Part shown: in pieces, positions 1-9,665 of the stretch
Layout of the letters: each line of letters begins with the position of its first letter
Position numbering within the stretch: position 1 is the stretch's first letter
Origin: Terriglobia bacterium
Lineage (GTDB): Bacteria; Acidobacteriota; Terriglobia; Terriglobales; Acidobacteriaceae
Direction of reading: 5' to 3'
DNA: 64,000 nucleotides
NCBI GenBank assembly: GCA_032252755.1
Contig: JAVUPY010000017.1
Span: 124,001 to 188,000 of the forward strand
Notes under the pieces: model-generated
The model's input: only the letters and a program-made list of their open reading frames with translations
The model's database searches: none
What the model was told of the DNA's origin: nothing
Program-made: the position numbers and the translations under genes

Positions 1-1
1 G

Positions 2-1180
2 ACCGCCTGCGGTGGGTTCAACCTCGTCGAGGGCAATCGCGGAGTTTTTGACGGGCTTGACGCCGTTGGCACCCACAGCAGCGCCGCGCTCGCCAAGCGT
101 CTCCAACTTCCAGTGATCCTCGTCCTGAACGTGACCAAGGTTACCCGTTCGGCGGCGGCATTCGTGCTCGGTGCTCGCGCCCTCGATCCCGAACTCAATA
201 TCGCCGGCATCGTCTTGAACAACCTTAACGGACGCCGCCACGAACGAGTTGTGCGCGATGCGATCGCGTCCGCCTGTGATATCCCGGTGGTCGGCGCGGT
301 GCCCAGACTCGATATCTCCGAACTGGTCCCGGAGCGTCATCTCGGACTGGTTACACCGGAGGAGTTCCCCGTCCTCAGTGCCCTTGAGCACCAGCTCGGA
401 GAGATCGCGTCGCACAATGTAGATCTTGATGCCATCCTGCGAATCGCCGCCACTGCCCCGCCCCTCACGATCACACCACTCCCCGAGACGACTTGCCGCT
501 GCGGTTCCGGATTGAAGATCGCCTATATAAAGGACCGCGCGTTCAGCTTCTACTACGCCGAGAACCTGGAAGCTATCGAGCGCTCCGGAGCACAACTGGT
601 CGAAATCTCAGCGCTGTCGAATTCCGAGCTTCCGCCGGACATCAACGCTCTCTACGTTGGGGGCGGTTTTCCCGAGACGCAGGCTGTGACGCTTCGTGCC
701 AACGAGAGTTTCCTTCGATCGCTGCGGAACGCCGCCGAGCGAGGCCTTCCTATTTACGCCGAGTGCGGCGGCCTCATGCTGCTGTCGCATTCCATTCTCT
801 GGAAGGGGAAGTCGTTTCCAATGGCGAACGTTTTCCCATTCGATGTGCAGGTGCAGTCGACCAAGCAGGGACACGGGTACACCGAACTGCAAGTGGACCA
901 CCCAAATCCTTTCTTCGAAATGGGAACGAGTTTACGAGGGCACGAGTTTCACTACTCTCACGTGGTCCTTGAAGGTACAGTGCCCGCAACCGCCTGCGCT
1001 GTACGGCGTGGCACAGGGATCGGGAATAACCGCGACGGTCTCATCACGAAAAACGTTTTTGGCAGCTACACCCACCTGCACTCTCTTGCCACACCGGAGT
1101 GGGCCAATGGGCTGCTGAAGGCGGCGAGGCGATATGCCGATTCGCATGCCACTCTGGCAGTCGTCTCGGAGAAAGCGTAA
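2..1180 (+). CDS. cobB: Cobyrinate a,c-diamide synthase, 5'-truncated by the window edge
   Basis: This enzyme makes ATP- and glutamine-dependent amidations of the corrin a and c side chains in cobalamin synthesis (known for the family). The reading frame is open from base 2 with no start, so the N-terminal P-loop part lies outside the window. The visible part starts in the dethiobiotin-synthetase-like domain with VEGNRGVFDG, the family motif near the ATP/corrin site. The C-terminal half is a class I glutamine amidotransferase domain with YAECGGLMLL, whose Cys is the expected nucleophile, and a late HLHSLA-type stretch. The first ATG in frame is at 113 but lies inside the conserved domain, so it is not the true start. 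No other cobalamin gene is in the window. CbiA is the anaerobic-pathway name for the same family and cannot be separated from CobB here. Confidence 0.93.
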   Translation, partial: TACGGFNLVEGNRGVFDGLDAVGTHSSAALAKRLQLPVILVLNVTKVTRSAAAFVLGARALDPELNIAGIVLNNLNGRRHERVVRDAIASACDIPVVGAVPRLDISELVPERHLGLVTPEEFPVLSALEHQLGEIASHNVDLDAILRIAATAPPLTITPLPETTCRCGSGLKIAYIKDRAFSFYYAENLEAIERSGAQLVEISALSNSELPPDINALYVGGGFPETQAVTLRANESFLRSLRNAAERGLPIYAECGGLMLLSHSILWKGKSFPMANVFPFDVQVQSTKQGHGYTELQVDHPNPFFEMGTSLRGHEFHYSHVVLEGTVPATACAVRRGTGIGNNRDGLITKNVFGSYTHLHSLATPEWANGLLKAARRYADSHATLAVVSEKA

Positions 1181-1344: not shown

Positions 1345-2112
1345 ATGCTGACCAAAAGTCAATCACGTTCTACCGGCAAAGAACGCGATGGTGAGACCGG
1401 GCTGGATTATTTCGGAGCAAGGTATTACTGGTCAAACATGGGCAGGTGGATGTCACCTGATTGGAGCGTTGAGCCAAAGGCCGTGCCGTATTCTGACCTC
1501 GCCGATCCACAGACACTTAATCTATATGGGTACGTGCGAAATAATCCGCTTGGCCATCCTGACGTTAATGGGCACTGCCCCCAATGTATCGTCGTGCTGG
1601 GGTGGGCTGTCGGAGTCGAACTTGGCCTATGGACTGGTGGCAGCATTTACTTTCACCTGCAGAAAGCGACTGCTGATGCAAAATATCAAGAGGAGACGGG
1701 AAGGCTTTACATAGACGCAAACAGGTTTCCGAATAGTCCTGGCTATTCACAACTCGATATCAATTCGCTCGCCCGCCAGACTACACTGAGTCAAGTCCAG
1801 ACCTTTAAAGATGCGATTCAGGTCGGCCAAGACATCAATTCGATCGCTGGCAAAGGAAACCTGACGAGGGGCTCAGGAACCGCCACGGAAAAAGCAATCG
1901 GGGTGGGCCTGAGTACAGGGACTAAGACGGTTAGCGATTTTGTGAAGGATACAACTCCGACGACGCAGAATAAACAGCAAGACACTCAACGGACAGGCCA
2001 GCAGCTAAATCAACCGAAACCGACGCAGCCACCTCAGACTCCACCGCCGGTACCACAATCGGCTACGCCGAAACCACCACCACCCGTGTGCATTTCGAAG
2101 ACGATGTGTTGA
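1345..2112 (+). CDS. Orphan RHS repeat-associated core C-terminal tip (tip A)
   Basis: This is the C-terminal end of an RHS/YD-repeat protein without its body. The RHS-core signature is at residues 11-75: TGKERDGETGLDYFGARYY, then GRWMSPDW, DPQTLNLYGYVRNNPL and a DVNGHC end. Full RHS proteins have more than 1000 residues before this point; here there are about ten. After the core comes a variable tip of about 180 residues with a hydrophobic stretch (residues 75-95), a polar region and a Pro/Gln-rich tail (residues 205-250). In intact RHS proteins this variable part is usually a toxin, and a cognate immunity gene follows; the gene at 2134 is in that place. I do not recognise the tip fold. It may be an expressed orphan tip, a recombination reservoir or a decayed gene. 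The ATG at 1345 is the only plausible start and no clear ribosome binding site is seen. Confidence 0.75.
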   Translation: MLTKSQSRSTGKERDGETGLDYFGARYYWSNMGRWMSPDWSVEPKAVPYSDLADPQTLNLYGYVRNNPLGHPDVNGHCPQCIVVLGWAVGVELGLWTGGSIYFHLQKATADAKYQEETGRLYIDANRFPNSPGYSQLDINSLARQTTLSQVQTFKDAIQVGQDINSIAGKGNLTRGSGTATEKAIGVGLSTGTKTVSDFVKDTTPTTQNKQQDTQRTGQQLNQPKPTQPPQTPPPVPQSATPKPPPPVCISKTMC

Positions 2113-2848: not shown

Positions 2849-3385
2849 TCACTCACTGCACGCAGCCACAGTGGCAGAACTAGTAATGCGATACTCCATC
2901 GCATCTAGACTACTTAACTTAAAATTGGGATCACGCAATACGGTTCGAAAATCGAATGAAGGTGTCGGCCCAAGATAGATGCCAACGATGCCCTTAGAAT
3001 AGGTATAGTGGAACAAGTAATTTGGAGCAGCGTCGAAAACCATCCATAAGTTGTTGTGCAGCACCGAAACGAGCTTTGGACGAAACCTGAGGCGCTTGTA
3101 ATCTCCGTACGCCGCATCCTTGCACTGTCGAAAGTAGGCGAACGCAAATCCATGGTGGTCCGTCAGACACACTTCGAATTTGTCACTGCAATCCTGCAGT
3201 CCCGTACTTCGTGAGCGCGGTGTATCAAGAGTTCCAGTCCGCGTATCCAGGTTTATGGTGGCTCCATTCGATGCAGTAAATGTAGCCAGGAAACCGGCGT
3301 GCTCCGATGATCCCGACTGTGCCGTCGCTGCCGAAAGCAGCGTCACGAGCACAAAGAATATTCGTATACTACACTTCATTGGCAA
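2849..3385 (-). CDS. Predicted secreted protein coupled to RHS tip B (possible immunity protein)
   Basis: A 178-residue protein I do not recognise. The N-terminus (MKCSIRIFFVLVTLLSAATA) is a clear signal peptide; a second ATG at 3379 gives the same peptide without two residues. The mature part contains Cys pairs near residues 65-72 and 87, aromatic-rich segments and a final VAACSE. The start overlaps the end of RHS tip B (stop at 3376) by 10 bases, the translational coupling often seen for polymorphic toxin and immunity pairs. It is unrelated by eye to the gene at 2134, as expected if each protects against a different tip. A periplasmic protective role is inference. Its stop faces the tip A unit, so the two units are convergent. 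Confidence 0.6.
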   Translation of the reverse strand: MPMKCSIRIFFVLVTLLSAATAQSGSSEHAGFLATFTASNGATINLDTRTGTLDTPRSRSTGLQDCSDKFEVCLTDHHGFAFAYFRQCKDAAYGDYKRLRFRPKLVSVLHNNLWMVFDAAPNYLFHYTYSKGIVGIYLGPTPSFDFRTVLRDPNFKLSSLDAMEYRITSSATVAACSE

Positions 3386-4122
3386 CCCCCTGGTATATCG
3401 CAGTCGAACGGAGCACCGACAGCTTCTGACATGCGCTTGCCGGCCGAGCTCGTGCCTTGTTCACGCGGCCACGAAATCATAGGCGTAACCGGATATTGTT
3501 GCGTCAACGCCTCTCCAAAGTGGGTTTCATGACCTAGCTCATGAAACGTCAAAGTAGTGAGCCCCACGAGCGGAGCCTCATTGCGGGCAGACGCGGCGTT
3601 AGCGTAGTCCGACACCGCCTGAGGATTTAGCTCGCTATGACCGGAGAATGAATCTCCTTTCCAGGTGCCACCTGTTCCGCCGCCAGCGCCGCCGTTATTG
3701 AAACCCTTGTTCGTCACGTCAAAATGTGTCCCGTTCCAAACAGCCTTGATCTCCTTCCCCGTCATTGACCCAATGACCTTACCCTTCGAGTCTTTGATAT
3801 CAAATTTGTCCTTGTCATTTAGAGCATTCACGGCCTTGTCATACTTGTTCAATACCCCTTCCAGTTGCTTGCCAGCTTTTGTGCCTGCCGACCCCGTGTT
3901 CGGGTCCACATTTACCTTACAAGTCCCATCCTTGTAGTGATCGGCGCAGTGCCCATCCAGGTCGGCACGACTCAGAGGATTGTTCCTTACGTATGAGTAC
4001 AGGTTCAACGTCTGTGGGTCACCGAACAATGCGTAGGGCACAGTCGTAGGTTTAGCAGCCCAATCGGGCGTCATGAACCTGCCCATATTCGAAGCGTTGT
4101 ATCTAGCTCCGAAGTAGTCCAA
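3376..4122 (-). CDS. Orphan RHS tip with zincin-like HELGH motif (tip B)
   Basis: A second RHS C-terminal tip without the RHS body. Core motifs are LDYFGARYNASNMGRFMTPD, DPQTLNLYSYVRNNPL and ADLDGHC in residues 1-60. The variable part (residues 60-248) has a Gly-rich patch GGAGGGTGG and then TLTFHELGHETHF near residue 193; HELGH fits the HExxH zinc-protease motif, so a metallopeptidase-type toxin is a reasonable guess. The frame begins at a TTG (4122) inside the conserved core. Compared with tip A, one extra C near 4151 shifts the upstream bases matching tip A's MLTKSQSRST into another frame, and the open frame runs back to about 4220 without an ATG. It may therefore be non-expressed. Coupled downstream gene: 2849-3385. 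Confidence 0.65.
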   Translation of the reverse strand: MDYFGARYNASNMGRFMTPDWAAKPTTVPYALFGDPQTLNLYSYVRNNPLSRADLDGHCADHYKDGTCKVNVDPNTGSAGTKAGKQLEGVLNKYDKAVNALNDKDKFDIKDSKGKVIGSMTGKEIKAVWNGTHFDVTNKGFNNGGAGGGTGGTWKGDSFSGHSELNPQAVSDYANAASARNEAPLVGLTTLTFHELGHETHFGEALTQQYPVTPMISWPREQGTSSAGKRMSEAVGAPFDCDIPGGCQ

Positions 4123-4843: not shown

Positions 4844-6694
4844 TCAGTTTCCTGGCGGTGGCAGGATTGGGCTGCCGGTGGAAACTGAGTTGCCGCGCAG
4901 GATGACGTCGCGAGCCTGGATCTCCTCCGGGCGTGTCTTGTGACACCACGCGCACTGGGTCATCTCCGGTTTCTTCTTCTCCACCGCTTTCTTCCGGTGA
5001 CAGCCAAGGCAAGTGCGGTGCATGGCGTCAACGTAGCTGGGCGCAACGTAGGTCTTGACCTGGATGAGCGACTTCGGGGGAACCAGGTCCTTGTGACAAC
5101 GATCGCAACGGACGGCGGTGGCGGCGGTTCGCGCCAGGCCGGGAGTGTGGCACTGATAGCAGGCGATGTTGGCACCATGGGGAGAGGCGTGCCAGTCGTG
5201 GCGGAAGACGTCGACAGCCTGGTACATCTCGCGATGGCAGGATGCGCAGTCGGAATTTTTGCTGCGCGGCAGGTTCATGTGGTGGCAGAGGACGCACGAG
5301 TCCTTCTCGCCGAGGCGCTTCTTGTGCTCGTCATGCTTGAAGGCGACGCCGGTGCCATCCAGGTTGGCATCGATCCAGAGCACTTCTCCGCCGCGTGCAC
5401 GGTGGGCGGGTGTGGTTTCGATCCCTTGTTTCTGCGCGGCATTGGCGGTTAAGAGGCCAAAGCCAACAGCCGCAGCGACAACCGCCGCAAGCGAATAGAC
5501 TGTGCGCGCACCAATCGCGTGCACGTCGAGCCAGGTAGTAGTGACCTCGTCGAATTCCGGGAGATGCCTGGGATCGGCCAGTGGATCCACGGGGCGTTGC
5601 TCCCAAACGCGGAAGTGCTCCATGATGAAGAGGAAGAGCAGCGTCGCAGCCGACACAATGCCAACGCTGATCGCCACTTCAGTCCATGCAGGAACATAGA
5701 AGCCGCCATTGGGCCGCAAGTGCGCCAGACCGCCGGTGTCGATGCGGTTGAAGACGACGCCAAAAACACCGATAGCGGCTCCCGCCCATTGTCCTTCGCG
5801 AGTGCGACGCACCTTCGGAATGGAAAACAGAACCAGCGGCACTACGGCTATCACGCAGATCTCGAACCAGAACAGGAACGTTCGAACATCCGCTGCAAAC
5901 AGGTACAGTCCCTGATGCCGGATCAGCAGATCTCCGAAACGCAGTGCCAGGTACAGTACGAGTACCCATCGCACGGCTCCGGCGAACGAGGCCATCAGGT
6001 CCCGCTCCGGCTTGCGGCGATAGAGAAAGGCCGTGAAATGGCTCTCGAAGATGACCATCATCATGCCGAGTGCAATGGCGGAGATGAGGAACAGCAGCGG
6101 GAGCACCGGCGAATACCACAACGGCGAGAGCCGGTACGGCATGATAAGGAACAGCGAACCAAGCGAGGACTGGTGCAGGGTCGAGAGGCCGATTCCAAGC
6201 AGTACAAGCGGCAATCGCAGCCGCACCAGGAAGCTGCGAACCTTTGCCAGGCGCGGAAACTCCTCAGCCGGGACGGGCAGAAACTCGAGCGACAGAACAG
6301 TGAGGTACAGCATGACGCACCAGCCCACCTCGAACAGCGCTGAGCGCGGATTCCAGTAGACCATCATGTGCCAGATGTTCCACGGCAGTCCGAGATCGAA
6401 GAGGAGGCTGAACGCAACAGCGGCGTACCCGAGAAAAGCTGTCAGCACGGCAGGACGAACGATGGAGTGAAAGCGCTCGAGTTTGAAGATATAGACAGTC
6501 GCGGTGACGATGAAGCCGCCGGCGGCAAGCGCGACGCCACCCATTACGTCGAACCCGACCCACAATCCCCAGGCGTTTCCGTCGCCGAGGTTCGTGGTCG
6601 CGCCGAGGCCGAAGTAAAAGCGCGCTGCAGCGACCGCAGCCGCGAGTCCTACCAAAGTCCACAGCAGAAATTTAAGTTTCTGAACTCTGTCCAT
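4844..6694 (-). CDS. NrfD/HybB-type membrane subunit fused to a hexaheme cytochrome c
   Basis: A 616-residue fusion. Residues 1-370 are a polytopic NrfD/HybB/HmcC-like quinone-interacting protein with about ten membrane segments; the stretch VYIFKLERFHSIVRPAVL is typical of the HybB branch. After a polar linker (370-400) another membrane segment (about 402-425) leads into a C-terminal domain (440-600) with six CxxCH heme sites: CVLCH, CASCH, CYQCH, CDRCH, CLGCH and CAWCH, plus many His that could be distal ligands. The heme domain is expected in the periplasm. In Hmc, Dsr and related complexes the NrfD protein and the multiheme cytochrome are separate subunits, so the fusion is unusual. The start overlaps the upstream FeS gene by 23 bases. 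It is the last gene of the operon 9665 to 4844. Substrate and direction of electron flow cannot be read from the sequence. Confidence 0.88.
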   Translation of the reverse strand: MDRVQKLKFLLWTLVGLAAAVAAARFYFGLGATTNLGDGNAWGLWVGFDVMGGVALAAGGFIVTATVYIFKLERFHSIVRPAVLTAFLGYAAVAFSLLFDLGLPWNIWHMMVYWNPRSALFEVGWCVMLYLTVLSLEFLPVPAEEFPRLAKVRSFLVRLRLPLVLLGIGLSTLHQSSLGSLFLIMPYRLSPLWYSPVLPLLFLISAIALGMMMVIFESHFTAFLYRRKPERDLMASFAGAVRWVLVLYLALRFGDLLIRHQGLYLFAADVRTFLFWFEICVIAVVPLVLFSIPKVRRTREGQWAGAAIGVFGVVFNRIDTGGLAHLRPNGGFYVPAWTEVAISVGIVSAATLLFLFIMEHFRVWEQRPVDPLADPRHLPEFDEVTTTWLDVHAIGARTVYSLAAVVAAAVGFGLLTANAAQKQGIETTPAHRARGGEVLWIDANLDGTGVAFKHDEHKKRLGEKDSCVLCHHMNLPRSKNSDCASCHREMYQAVDVFRHDWHASPHGANIACYQCHTPGLARTAATAVRCDRCHKDLVPPKSLIQVKTYVAPSYVDAMHRTCLGCHRKKAVEKKKPEMTQCAWCHKTRPEEIQARDVILRGNSVSTGSPILPPPGN

Positions 6695-7439
6695 CCTCGG
6701 ACTCTTTCTGGCGCTTGATTCGCCGCTCGATTACCCAACTGACGCCACCCATGAGCGCCAGCATTCCACAAAAGACAAACGGGACGCTCTCCATCGCGAC
6801 CGAGGTAAGCGTCGGCAGGGCCGTCCCAGCGACTGAGGTGTTTCCGGTGAGGAACGACAGATCGACGCCCGAGATGTAGAGCACCGATGAGCCCCCAGCA
6901 TCGCTTTCTCCCCAGACCTTGTTGAGGTAAAGATCGGGACGCAGTTCGATGCGACGGTGCGCCTCGGCGAGCAGAGCATCGCGATCGCCGAAGATGGTGG
7001 CCTTGGCGGGACAGGCTTCCGTGCATGCAGGCTGCTGCCCCTGCTTCACGCGGTCGTAGCACAGGATGCATTTGCGCACGTACGGTACGGCCGCTTCCCA
7101 GTCATAGCGGGGGATCTCGTAGGGGCACGCCATCATGCAATAACGGCAGCCCATGCACTTCACCGGGTCGTAGATTACCGGGCCGAACGAAGTCTTCTGC
7201 ATCGCTCCGACTGGGCAGGCCGACACGCACGCGGGCTCCAGGCAATGGCGACACTGTTTGCGAACGTGCGAGTTGGCGGGACCGTCCACAACCGACGTCC
7301 AGTTGCGCGCGGTCAGGCCGTCGCCAACGTCCCATCGTCGCGGAACGTCGGGCGCAAGATGGTTTGTTTTCTTGCACGCGGCTACGCACTCGCCGCAGGC
7401 AATGCACTTGGTGACGTCCGTGAGGATCGCTGGCTTCAT
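6672..7439 (-). CDS. 4Fe-4S ferredoxin subunit with C-terminal membrane anchor (HmcB/HybA/DsrO-like)
   Basis: A 255-residue electron-transfer subunit with Cys clusters CIACGECVAACK (residue 11 on), CRHCLEPACVSACP, CMGCRYCMMACP and CILCYDRVK...CTEACP, enough for four cubane clusters as in DmsB/HybA/HmcB proteins. There is no Tat leader at the N-terminus, so these Cys-rich domains may face the cytoplasm, unlike HybA; the membrane segment near residues 219-237 anchors the C-terminus. The start chosen is the ATG at 7439, where the conserved MKPAILTDVTKC begins; the frame is open further upstream but that part matches the overlapping cytochrome b gene in another frame. It overlaps that gene by four bases (ATGA) and the fusion gene by 23, which implies co-translation. 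Confidence 0.9.
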   Translation of the reverse strand: MKPAILTDVTKCIACGECVAACKKTNHLAPDVPRRWDVGDGLTARNWTSVVDGPANSHVRKQCRHCLEPACVSACPVGAMQKTSFGPVIYDPVKCMGCRYCMMACPYEIPRYDWEAAVPYVRKCILCYDRVKQGQQPACTEACPAKATIFGDRDALLAEAHRRIELRPDLYLNKVWGESDAGGSSVLYISGVDLSFLTGNTSVAGTALPTLTSVAMESVPFVFCGMLALMGGVSWVIERRIKRQKESEDGQSSET

Positions 7440-8236
7440 GAAACGCGGACCTCCTCCGATGCTGTGCCGGTTTTTGCGGTTGACGCTTGCTCTTCCGCAG
7501 GCGAAGGAGGCTCGAGGCGCGCCTTGGGAAGCCAGTTTGGCCGATCTTCGTAACCAAGCGTCTCGGCAACCCTGTCTCCACCCCCGACCGGAAACTTCCA
7601 TGCCACTGCGGTGACGACCTGCGAAATTGGCGCAAGCACGCAATGCGCAATTCGAGTGAACGGCAGCAGCGCCAGGATCAGGTCGGCCGAGTAAACGTGC
7701 AGCAGCATGAATTGCTGATAACCATTTGCCGAAAGGCGCGCGTGCGAGCAGACAAACCCTGTGGCAAATGGTACGAGCAGCAGCGCCGGCCAGAGGTACT
7801 CCTGCAGCCCGCTCAACTTGCGGGTGGCGGCGGGAATCGCTCGTCCGAGGAGAAGCCCAATGCCGGCTACCAGCGTCGTTACGGTCAGAATGTCGGCGAG
7901 GCGCTGCGGAATGGCTCCCCAGGCAAAACCGGTGGAGCGGCGCCACAGGAGTACGTGCGCGGCGGCGAAGAGCGGTACAAGGATCAAGCCAATGTGGAAT
8001 ATCACCGACACGGCGCTGTATACCGGTCGCTTTCGCAGCAGGCTGCGGACTGGTAACAGCCAAGTCGCGGTCTGTAGACGAACGTCTTTCCAGTTGACGA
8101 TTCGGTCCCAACTGCGGCGGTACGCGCCAGCGACACCCATCACCGTGAGTAACAGGATTCGGGCGAGCCCCAGGACCAGCACGGAGAACGACATCACGAA
8201 GAGCGGCCCGCGGCCAAATTCAATCCAAGTCTCCAA
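7436..8236 (-). CDS. Cytochrome b subunit (HmcE/DsrM/NarI-like)
   Basis: A 266-residue integral membrane protein with about five to six hydrophobic segments. His residues in VIFHIGLILVPLFAAAHVLL and in SHARL / LLHVYSADLILAL are placed like the heme b ligands of the NarI/DsrM/HmcE family, which exchanges electrons with quinone. The start chosen is TTG at 8236, because a strong GGAGGGG ribosome binding site ends about seven bases upstream and because the upstream open frame would run into the preceding gene. The C-terminal 40 residues are polar and Glu/Pro/Ala-rich. It starts 19 bases after the CCG/FeS gene stops and overlaps the next gene by four bases. Confidence 0.82.
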   Translation of the reverse strand: METWIEFGRGPLFVMSFSVLVLGLARILLLTVMGVAGAYRRSWDRIVNWKDVRLQTATWLLPVRSLLRKRPVYSAVSVIFHIGLILVPLFAAAHVLLWRRSTGFAWGAIPQRLADILTVTTLVAGIGLLLGRAIPAATRKLSGLQEYLWPALLLVPFATGFVCSHARLSANGYQQFMLLHVYSADLILALLPFTRIAHCVLAPISQVVTAVAWKFPVGGGDRVAETLGYEDRPNWLPKARLEPPSPAEEQASTAKTGTASEEVRVS

Positions 8237-8255: not shown

Positions 8256-9665
8256 CTAATCGAAAACGATGGCCTTATAGAGCAGGTCGTGCAGTCCCAC
8301 GATCTGGCAGTCGATATGGTTGTCTTCCACCAACTCGCGGAGTTGCTTCTTGCAATTCGCACACGGGGCGACACAGTACTTCGCGCCGGTCGCGCGAATC
8401 TGCTCGGCCTTCGCGAGTCCGCCCACGGTAGTTCGGTACGGACGTATCTCGTCGATTGACACTGTCCCGCCCCCGCCGCCGCAGCAAATGTTATTTCGCC
8501 GGTTCGGCGTCATCTCCACGTAGTCGGAGCAAAACGCCTTGAGCAGTTCGCGCGGCTGTTCGAGGATCCAGCCCGGCCGTGCGATGTTGCAGGGATCGTG
8601 GTAGGTAATTCGTTCCGTTATTGCGCCCGGCTTCAGCTTCAGGCGACCTTCCTTCCAGGCCCGGTAGGTGTACTCCATGATGTTGATCACCGGGCGGCCA
8701 TTCCGGCCCTCGCAGAAAGCCGGGTAGAAATACTTCGCGACGCGCGAAGCGTGGCCGCATTCCCCGATGATGATCTTCCTGGCGTGGAGACGGTCCGCCT
8801 CGGCCTTGATCTTCTTTACTACGTGCTCGAGCACCTGGTCGGAATAGAAGAGGCCGTAATTGATGCCATCGTAGTAGCCGGTGCCGATCGTCCAAGTGTC
8901 GCCCGTGGCTCGGAACACAGCGGCGTTTCCCATGAGGGTATCGGCTTCCATCATGAAGTCGGAAACGGCGGGGAAGAAAATGTACTCAGCACCATCCTGA
9001 TCGATAGGAAATGGCACATCGACCCCGCGCTCCTCCTTCATCGAATCCGAGAGGAACTCCAGCGAATCCAGGAGTGCAGGAAGCGGGATCGCGGAAGTGT
9101 TGCCCGTCTTTCCTGTCAACTGTTCGCGCACGCTGACGGCCAGGGCTCGCGGCACGATTCCAATCTCCGAAAGTATGTACCGTCCGAGATGCGTGATCAG
9201 TGCGTGGTCTACTCCGACAGGACACTCGAAGACACAGCGGCGGCAGGCGGTACAGTTGTAGAACGCTGCGGCCATCTCCTGTACCTGGTCGTCAGTCAGG
9301 CCCGGGTCTCCGAGCAAACGGGCACGTAACATGCCGGCCACGGTGAAGTGTCGCCGATAAACGTTCAGCAACAGGCTGGACCGGTAGCATGGCACGTCGT
9401 GCGGATCGCCGGTCGCCTGGTAAACCTGGCAGCTCGTGGCGCAGCGCGCGCATTTCGCGATCACCCGAATGTAATGATCGAGGGCGACACGGTAGTTGGT
9501 GTGTTTCAGGATCGCCGCGAATGCCTCGAGGAAGCGCCTTGGCCGCTCCTTCACGTCGAAATCTTCGACGTGATAGCGGACCGGCAGCTTCTGCCGGGCG
9601 ATGACGTCCTGCTTTTTTACGGTTGAGAAGGCCCTTTGCCGCTGCTCTTCGCTAATTCGCTCCAT
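8256..9665 (-). CDS. CCG-domain iron-sulfur oxidoreductase (HmcF/DsrK/HdrD-like)
   Basis: A 469-residue cytoplasmic subunit. An N-terminal ferredoxin-like region has CARCATSCQVY and, after a helical region, CTACRRCVFECP for two 4Fe-4S clusters. The C-terminal half has two Cys-rich CCG-type domains: HDPCNIAR with the NNICCGGGGG box (residues about 370-410) and a final CVAPCANCKKQL. The CCG domains of HdrB/HdrD hold the special cluster that handles disulfides; DsrK and HmcF carry the same architecture. The first gene of the operon; the start is the ATG at 9665 (MERISEEQR), since the 36 residues upstream are low-complexity and unlike the family. It probably sits on the cytoplasmic face of the cytochrome b and NrfD subunits. 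Confidence 0.88.
   Translation of the reverse strand: MERISEEQRQRAFSTVKKQDVIARQKLPVRYHVEDFDVKERPRRFLEAFAAILKHTNYRVALDHYIRVIAKCARCATSCQVYQATGDPHDVPCYRSSLLLNVYRRHFTVAGMLRARLLGDPGLTDDQVQEMAAAFYNCTACRRCVFECPVGVDHALITHLGRYILSEIGIVPRALAVSVREQLTGKTGNTSAIPLPALLDSLEFLSDSMKEERGVDVPFPIDQDGAEYIFFPAVSDFMMEADTLMGNAAVFRATGDTWTIGTGYYDGINYGLFYSDQVLEHVVKKIKAEADRLHARKIIIGECGHASRVAKYFYPAFCEGRNGRPVINIMEYTYRAWKEGRLKLKPGAITERITYHDPCNIARPGWILEQPRELLKAFCSDYVEMTPNRRNNICCGGGGGTVSIDEIRPYRTTVGGLAKAEQIRATGAKYCVAPCANCKKQLRELVEDNHIDCQIVGLHDLLYKAIVFD

Follow-up and report, generated by a model that had tools for sequence, protein, structure and literature searches.

An operon encoding an NrfD-hexaheme cytochrome c fusion protein adjoins sulfate respiration genes in an acidobacterium

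Comparison of the fusion operon with known complexes

The Hmc complex of Desulfovibrio (HmcABCDEF) carries a separate 16-heme cytochrome, HmcA, and DsrMKJOP combines a cytochrome b, a CCG iron-sulfur (FeS) protein, a further FeS protein, the NrfD subunit DsrP and the separate triheme cytochrome DsrJ. The Tmc complex (TmcABCD) is not known to contain an NrfD subunit. In QrcABCD, the hexaheme cytochrome QrcA is likewise a separate protein, and Desulfovibrio Qrc uses periplasmic electrons and cytoplasmic protons to reduce menaquinone close to the periplasmic side of the membrane (PMC6303296). Modules that pair a tail-anchored FeS protein with a HybB-like subunit have also been described (PMC10924467). 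Some include an octaheme cytochrome; in others the FeS protein has no signal and its neighbor is a FeFe hydrogenase exported by Tat.

The window analyzed here is a stretch of 64,000 nucleotides from contig JAVUPY010000017.1 of a Terriglobia bacterium. On its minus strand, translation, Pfam and NCBIfam comparison and CxxCH motifs identified a single 616-aa frame (4844..6694), here called CA, in which an NrfD domain of the HmcC/HybB type is joined to a hexaheme cytochrome c. CA is the last gene of an operon, with F, E and B upstream on the same strand. F (8256..9665, minus strand) is a DsrK/HmcF/TmcB-like (HdrD-type) FeS protein with the full CCG cluster ligands, E (7436..8236, minus strand) is a di-heme cytochrome b resembling HmcE, TmcC and NarI with four invariant histidines, and B (6672..7439, minus strand) is an HmcB/HybA-like protein with 16 conserved cysteines (four [4Fe-4S] clusters), a C-terminal membrane helix and no signal peptide; the start of F and the TTG start of E are proposed from homologues. 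B and CA overlap by 23 nt, and spacing across the operon consists of overlaps or a 19-nt gap. The order F-E-B-CA was kept wherever the contig was long enough, except at the divergent five-heme locus L076. The four-subunit grouping mentioned by an earlier sequence-only reading of this DNA was thereby recovered as a conserved four-gene operon. Promoter and terminator scans detected nothing above chance.

The closest NCBIfam models for the four subunits were HmcC, HmcB, HmcE/TmcC and DsrK, and none of the four reached the curated cut-off of any Hmc, Tmc, Dsr, Qrc or Hyb model. The operon resembles Hmc in having counterparts of B, C, E and F, a periplasmic multiheme cytochrome and a sulfate-respiration setting (HmcB model, 223.7 bits against a cut-off of 420; HmcC, 298.3 against 550; HmcE, 115 against 275; HmcF, 199.8 against 750). 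However, six hemes are fused to the C counterpart here in place of a separate 16-heme HmcA, and B lacks the N-terminal 37 positions of its model, which form the signal region. Hexadecaheme HmcA above cut-off was found in none of 26 fusion genomes. No HmcD gene is present in the operon, and the tight spacing of the genes leaves no room for one.

All five kinds of DsrMKJOP component have a likeness in the operon, but DsrP and DsrJ are separate in that complex and a real DsrMKJOP is also encoded in the same genome; the scores were 29.1 bits for DsrP (cut-off, 350), 98.8 for DsrO (200) and 282.9 for DsrK (400). The likeness to QrcABCD lies in an NrfD subunit with a likely periplasm-side quinone site, a hexaheme cytochrome and several proton-path residues, whereas the fusion operon has no separate QrcA, lacks a QrcB-like subunit and carries an extra F-E arm. 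The QrcD model gave 112.7 bits on CA (cut-off, 570), and none of 14 fusion genomes had QrcB above cut-off. F is similar to TmcB (205.3 bits; cut-off, 735) and E to TmcC (113.9 bits; cut-off, 240). The Hydrogenase-2 models reached 284.3 bits for HybB (cut-off, 450) and 191.6 for HybA (cut-off, 263), and the fusion operon contains no hydrogenase gene. The tail-anchored modules of PMC10924467 show the same B-C pairing, but here the cytochrome lies within the NrfD polypeptide and an F-E arm is present. On the model cut-offs and missing subunits, the complex was ruled out as Hmc, Dsr, Tmc or Qrc proper. It is probably Hmc-like in its working yet a separate variant, with known parts in a known kind of layout.

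Topology of the fusion protein

Pfam placed NrfD at residues 40-318 of CA (E 1e-19), and the protein passed the NrfD/PsrC family model PF03916 with 71.8 bits against a gathering score of 25.8. The tail passed class III (c3/c7-type) cytochrome models, matching Cytochrom_CIII at residues 496-585 (46.8 against a gathering score of 22.9) and Cytochrome_C7 at residues 452-535 (29.8 against 24.8). An AlphaFold2 model of CA, in which the membrane part was mostly at pLDDT 70-95 and the cytochrome part was poor, contained ten helices within residues 2-360 and an eleventh at residues 392-414 (5453..5521, minus strand). From Pfam, this model and fold matches, the ten-helix NrfD domain was delimited as residues 1-366 (5597..6694, minus strand); fold comparison of this part matched ActC of alternative complex III across residues 1-366 (Z about 30) and PsrC across residues 39-329 (Z 16.8). 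The class III-type hexaheme periplasmic domain comprises residues 440-602 (4889..5377, minus strand), with CxxCH sites starting at residues 467, 483, 512, 530, 562 and 581 (5282-5296, 5234-5248, 5147-5161, 5093-5107, 4997-5011 and 4940-4954, all minus strand). Modeled alone, this domain reached a pLDDT of 63 and a pTM of 0.37 and was hence not used for fold search.

Among 26 CA homologues, mean numbers of lysine plus arginine were 1.9-4.2 in the N-terminus and even loops versus 0.4-1.5 in the odd loops. By this charge bias, the N-terminus and the loop between helices 10 and 11 lie inside, whereas the hemes lie outside. Since ten helices leave the chain inside, the eleventh helix brings the tail outward, to the site of c-type heme assembly. 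The sequence-only reading had described one frame with a ten-segment HybB/NrfD-like domain, an extra membrane segment and six CxxCH sites; its coordinates were exact, on the minus strand, the proposed 10+1 topology with periplasmic hemes agrees with both the AlphaFold2 helices and the charge bias, and the contrast that it drew with the separate HmcC/HmcA and DsrP/DsrJ was upheld. Its picture of CA as a one-protein wire linking the quinone pool with hemes in the periplasm was overstated. NrfD-like subunits have no redox cofactor (PMC8076601), and therefore the FeS subunit B must bridge hemes and quinone. The fusion ties the cytochrome to the membrane module, and the wire is not made by CA alone. 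As a natural fusion, CA makes the NrfD-cytochrome contact certain and offers an aid to structural work on the NrfD family.

Sulfate respiration setting and proposed electron path

The window begins with the 3' part of a dsrN-like gene (1..1180, plus strand; cobyrinate a,c-diamide synthase type), identified by sequence likeness and gene order at the end of a dsr cluster that lies upstream of the window. The operon follows about 3.7 kb past dsrN and adjoins aprBA-qmo and dsr genes: upstream of the window, the same contig carries aprBA with QmoAB-like genes, followed by dsrB, a gene resembling dsrL, dsrM, dsrK, dsrJ, dsrO, dsrP and small genes resembling dsrD and dsrN. AprA, AprB, DsrB, DsrK, DsrJ and DsrP of this genome all exceeded their cut-offs, the remaining names in the island resting on gene order and sequence likeness. 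Since DsrK, DsrJ and DsrP pass, a genuine DsrMKJOP coexists with the fusion complex. The link to a sulfate-respiration gene island had been absent from the earlier reading. Between dsrN and the operon lie two RHS-core-like C-terminal remnants ('GLDYFGARYY..GRWMSPDW'; 1345-2112, plus strand, and 3376-4122, minus strand), perhaps a past site of insertion or rearrangement.

Across 396 Acidobacteriota genomes, dsrB above cut-off was found in 29. It was present in 16 of 18 fusion genomes versus 13 of 378 genomes without the fusion (p about 1e-18) and, counted by genus, in 14 of 16 fusion genera (p 5e-15), although both p values overstate independence, as the sampled genomes are related. The two fusion genomes without detected dsrB were 84% and 74% complete. 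In a second phylum, dsrB was found in all three fusion genomes versus none of six relatives with unfused NrfD. AprA exceeded its cut-off in 22 of 29 genomes tested. Because 13 sampled dsrB-bearing genomes have no fusion, the fusion is not required for the Dsr pathway. The complex tracks dsrAB across genera and two phyla, making it a concrete candidate for linking periplasmic electrons, the quinone pool and cytoplasmic sulfur enzymes in non-classical sulfate reducers.

One carrier of the operon is the acidobacterial MAG CO124 (locus L023, contig JARLGM010000007), which transcribes dsrAB almost only under anoxic conditions, in a reductive setting (PMC10564751). Neither that study nor PMC6018796 mentions an Hmc-like complex or such a fusion. 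The published 'qrcABCD' of CO124 was ruled out as the fusion operon; genes resembling QrcB and QrcD lie at another locus of this MAG.

We favor, at a probability of roughly 0.55, an Hmc-type transmembrane redox complex of four subunits that serves dissimilatory sulfate/sulfite reducers. Its periplasmic multiheme subunit would have turned into a C-terminal extension of NrfD, and electrons would flow inward to F. The analysis establishes the genes with their cofactor ligands, how CA is threaded through the membrane, the conservation of the operon and the dsr/apr link; subunit contacts, direction, partners (including that of F) and energy conservation are inferred. A soluble periplasmic c3-type cytochrome would pass electrons to the hexaheme tail of CA. 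The four FeS clusters of B would relay them to menaquinone, at a site in the NrfD domain that faces the periplasm, and the cytoplasm would supply the protons, as in QrcD. Menaquinol would then be re-oxidized by the di-heme cytochrome b E, which would deliver electrons to the heterodisulfide-type cluster of F, and F would reduce a cytoplasmic disulfide, for example DsrC-trisulfide. Elsewhere in this genome, and in two relatives, lies a gene for a soluble tetraheme class III cytochrome whose N-terminus is signal-like. In an alignment made via the QrcD-like protein of CO124, five of nine proposed proton-path residues corresponded to D49, Y90, Y130, E137 and H174 of CA, positions that were invariant or present in 23 of 26 sequences. 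QrcD E164 corresponds by spacing to E144 of CA and QrcD N100 to Arg80, while the path residues Y88 and E413 have no settled counterpart in the alignment. The conserved positions speak for the favored mechanism, and Arg80 speaks against it.

The reverse direction, in which menaquinol or a thiol oxidized by F would send electrons through B and the hexaheme tail to acceptors in the periplasm or outside the cell, serving redox balance, sulfide oxidation or disproportionation, was considered unlikely. NrfD modules work in both directions (PMC6303296), DsrL-bearing Acidobacteriota may use the Dsr pathway in reverse (PMC6018796) and related operons with 13- and 14-heme proteins adjoin more multiheme genes; against this, quinone reduction is the presumed role of HmcC, HybB and QrcD, which are the closest relatives known (PMC6303296), and the operon-bearing CO124 transcribes its dsrAB in a reductive setting (PMC10564751). 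It is more doubtful still that two modules share nothing but the operon, with F-E acting as a menaquinol:disulfide reductase and B-CA working apart from it as a quinone/cytochrome module. Cases without adjoining F-E genes were found among B-C pairs and among B-CA fusions of 3 or 14 hemes, but F-E lay beside every hexaheme and 4-heme B-CA on long-enough contigs, with the divergent L076 as the exception; moreover, the genes overlap or lie 19 nt apart, and both parts are present in Hmc of D. vulgaris.

For the favored inward-flowing complex, the location of B is critical: B has no export signal, so that its periplasmic placement is putative, and were it cytoplasmic, the heme-to-quinone path would fail. 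B lacked a signal peptide in all 22 operons that combine F-E with a fusion of 4 to 7 hemes (L021-L033, L077-L081 and L106-L109). In these same operons B keeps its C-terminal membrane helix followed by basic residues, a pattern that marks tail-anchored proteins whose FeS domain lies outside. As an internal control, a twin-arginine leader was present in B of all 11 of the 13- and 14-heme operons; it was missing from B of five 3-heme and nine cytochrome-less operons. An FeS protein with a tail anchor and no signal is thought to hitchhike on a Tat-exported hydrogenase (PMC10924467). No Tat-exported partner for B was found within the hexaheme operon, and the signal-less B presents a testable puzzle for Tat export. 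On a broader proposal, to which we give slightly less than even odds, this would be a respiratory complex without a name as yet, which the Dsr pathway accompanies in both inheritance and transfer and which takes the role of Hmc, Tmc or Qrc in non-classical sulfate reducers, with cytochrome entry and quinone/proton module in one polypeptide and B reaching the periplasm without a signal of its own.

Conservation of the fusion and other NrfD-multiheme forms

A genome scan with the CA protein yielded 15 named loci, 13 of them full-length fusions. Five- to seven-heme fusions were present in 18 of the 396 Acidobacteriota genomes searched and in 3 of 14 genomes of the second phylum (named record, Candidatus Omnitrophota SURF_12). 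In 29 fusion homologues from separate assemblies of the two phyla, both halves were in frame with no stop between them, and a tree of the NrfD part alone placed all 29 on one side of a branch (support 99/96; second tree, 99/98). The suggestion that the fusion is fixed was borne out by these in-frame homologues of one clade; neither a stop or frameshift at the junction nor homologues occurring always as two genes, the outcomes that had been named against it, was found. An assembly or frameshift artefact, with two genes joined through sequencing error, is refuted by these 29 homologues from separate assemblies, conserved at both sides of the junction; nothing was found in its favor, and its probability is negligible. 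No description of an NrfD-hexaheme fusion was found in the open-access literature searched.

Hemes 1, 2, 4, 5 and 6 of CA were invariant, and heme 3 was missing in one of 26 homologues. Further histidines at residues 454, 472, 499, 502 and 559 were invariant or nearly so, giving five for six hemes. The sixth candidate distal ligand, H457, was missing in four homologues; in L022-L025 it is replaced by Glu or Ile, with all six CxxCH sites kept. One heme in the sequences lacking H457 may have an open or non-histidine distal ligand.

The fusion sequences of the second phylum fell at two separate places within the hexaheme clade, which suggests that the fusion has passed between phyla. Lentisphaeria was set aside as a third phylum. 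The contig concerned (L034, JAGLDW010000497.1), which carries F-E-B-CA genes and was binned as Lentisphaeria, is probably mis-binned: its NrfD part shares 92% identity with a protein from Thermoanaerobaculales. No full fusion was found among 288 genomes of its assigned phylum.

Several NrfD-cytochrome fusion types exist, a point absent from the earlier reading, with three (c7-like), four, six or fourteen hemes. Three-heme fusions (L069-L073) had no F-E genes alongside, and four-heme fusions (L108 and L109) occurred with F-E; the 3-heme tails align to hemes 1-3 of the hexaheme tail and the 4-heme tails to its hemes 1-4. In L132-L138, one frame of about 1,080-1,170 aa with 13-14 hemes joins NrfD to class III-like hemes and to a tetrathionate-reductase-family domain with eight hemes. 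These fusions directly follow a Tat-signaled FeS gene, and the octaheme domain ends the 14-heme tail. In the tree, the hexaheme, 14-heme and 4-heme forms each clustered as a single group, with the 14-heme fusions next to operons that have a separate 13-heme gene. In L103, L104, L105 and L110, a Tat-signaled B and an unfused NrfD are followed by such a separate 13-heme gene, and L103-L105 have additional 6-, 11- or 19-heme genes nearby, a layout resembling that of extracellular electron transfer. At L068 (G000:C32:42000-59000), heterodisulfide-reductase-like and NiFe-hydrogenase-like genes are followed directly by a 362-aa NrfD-like gene.
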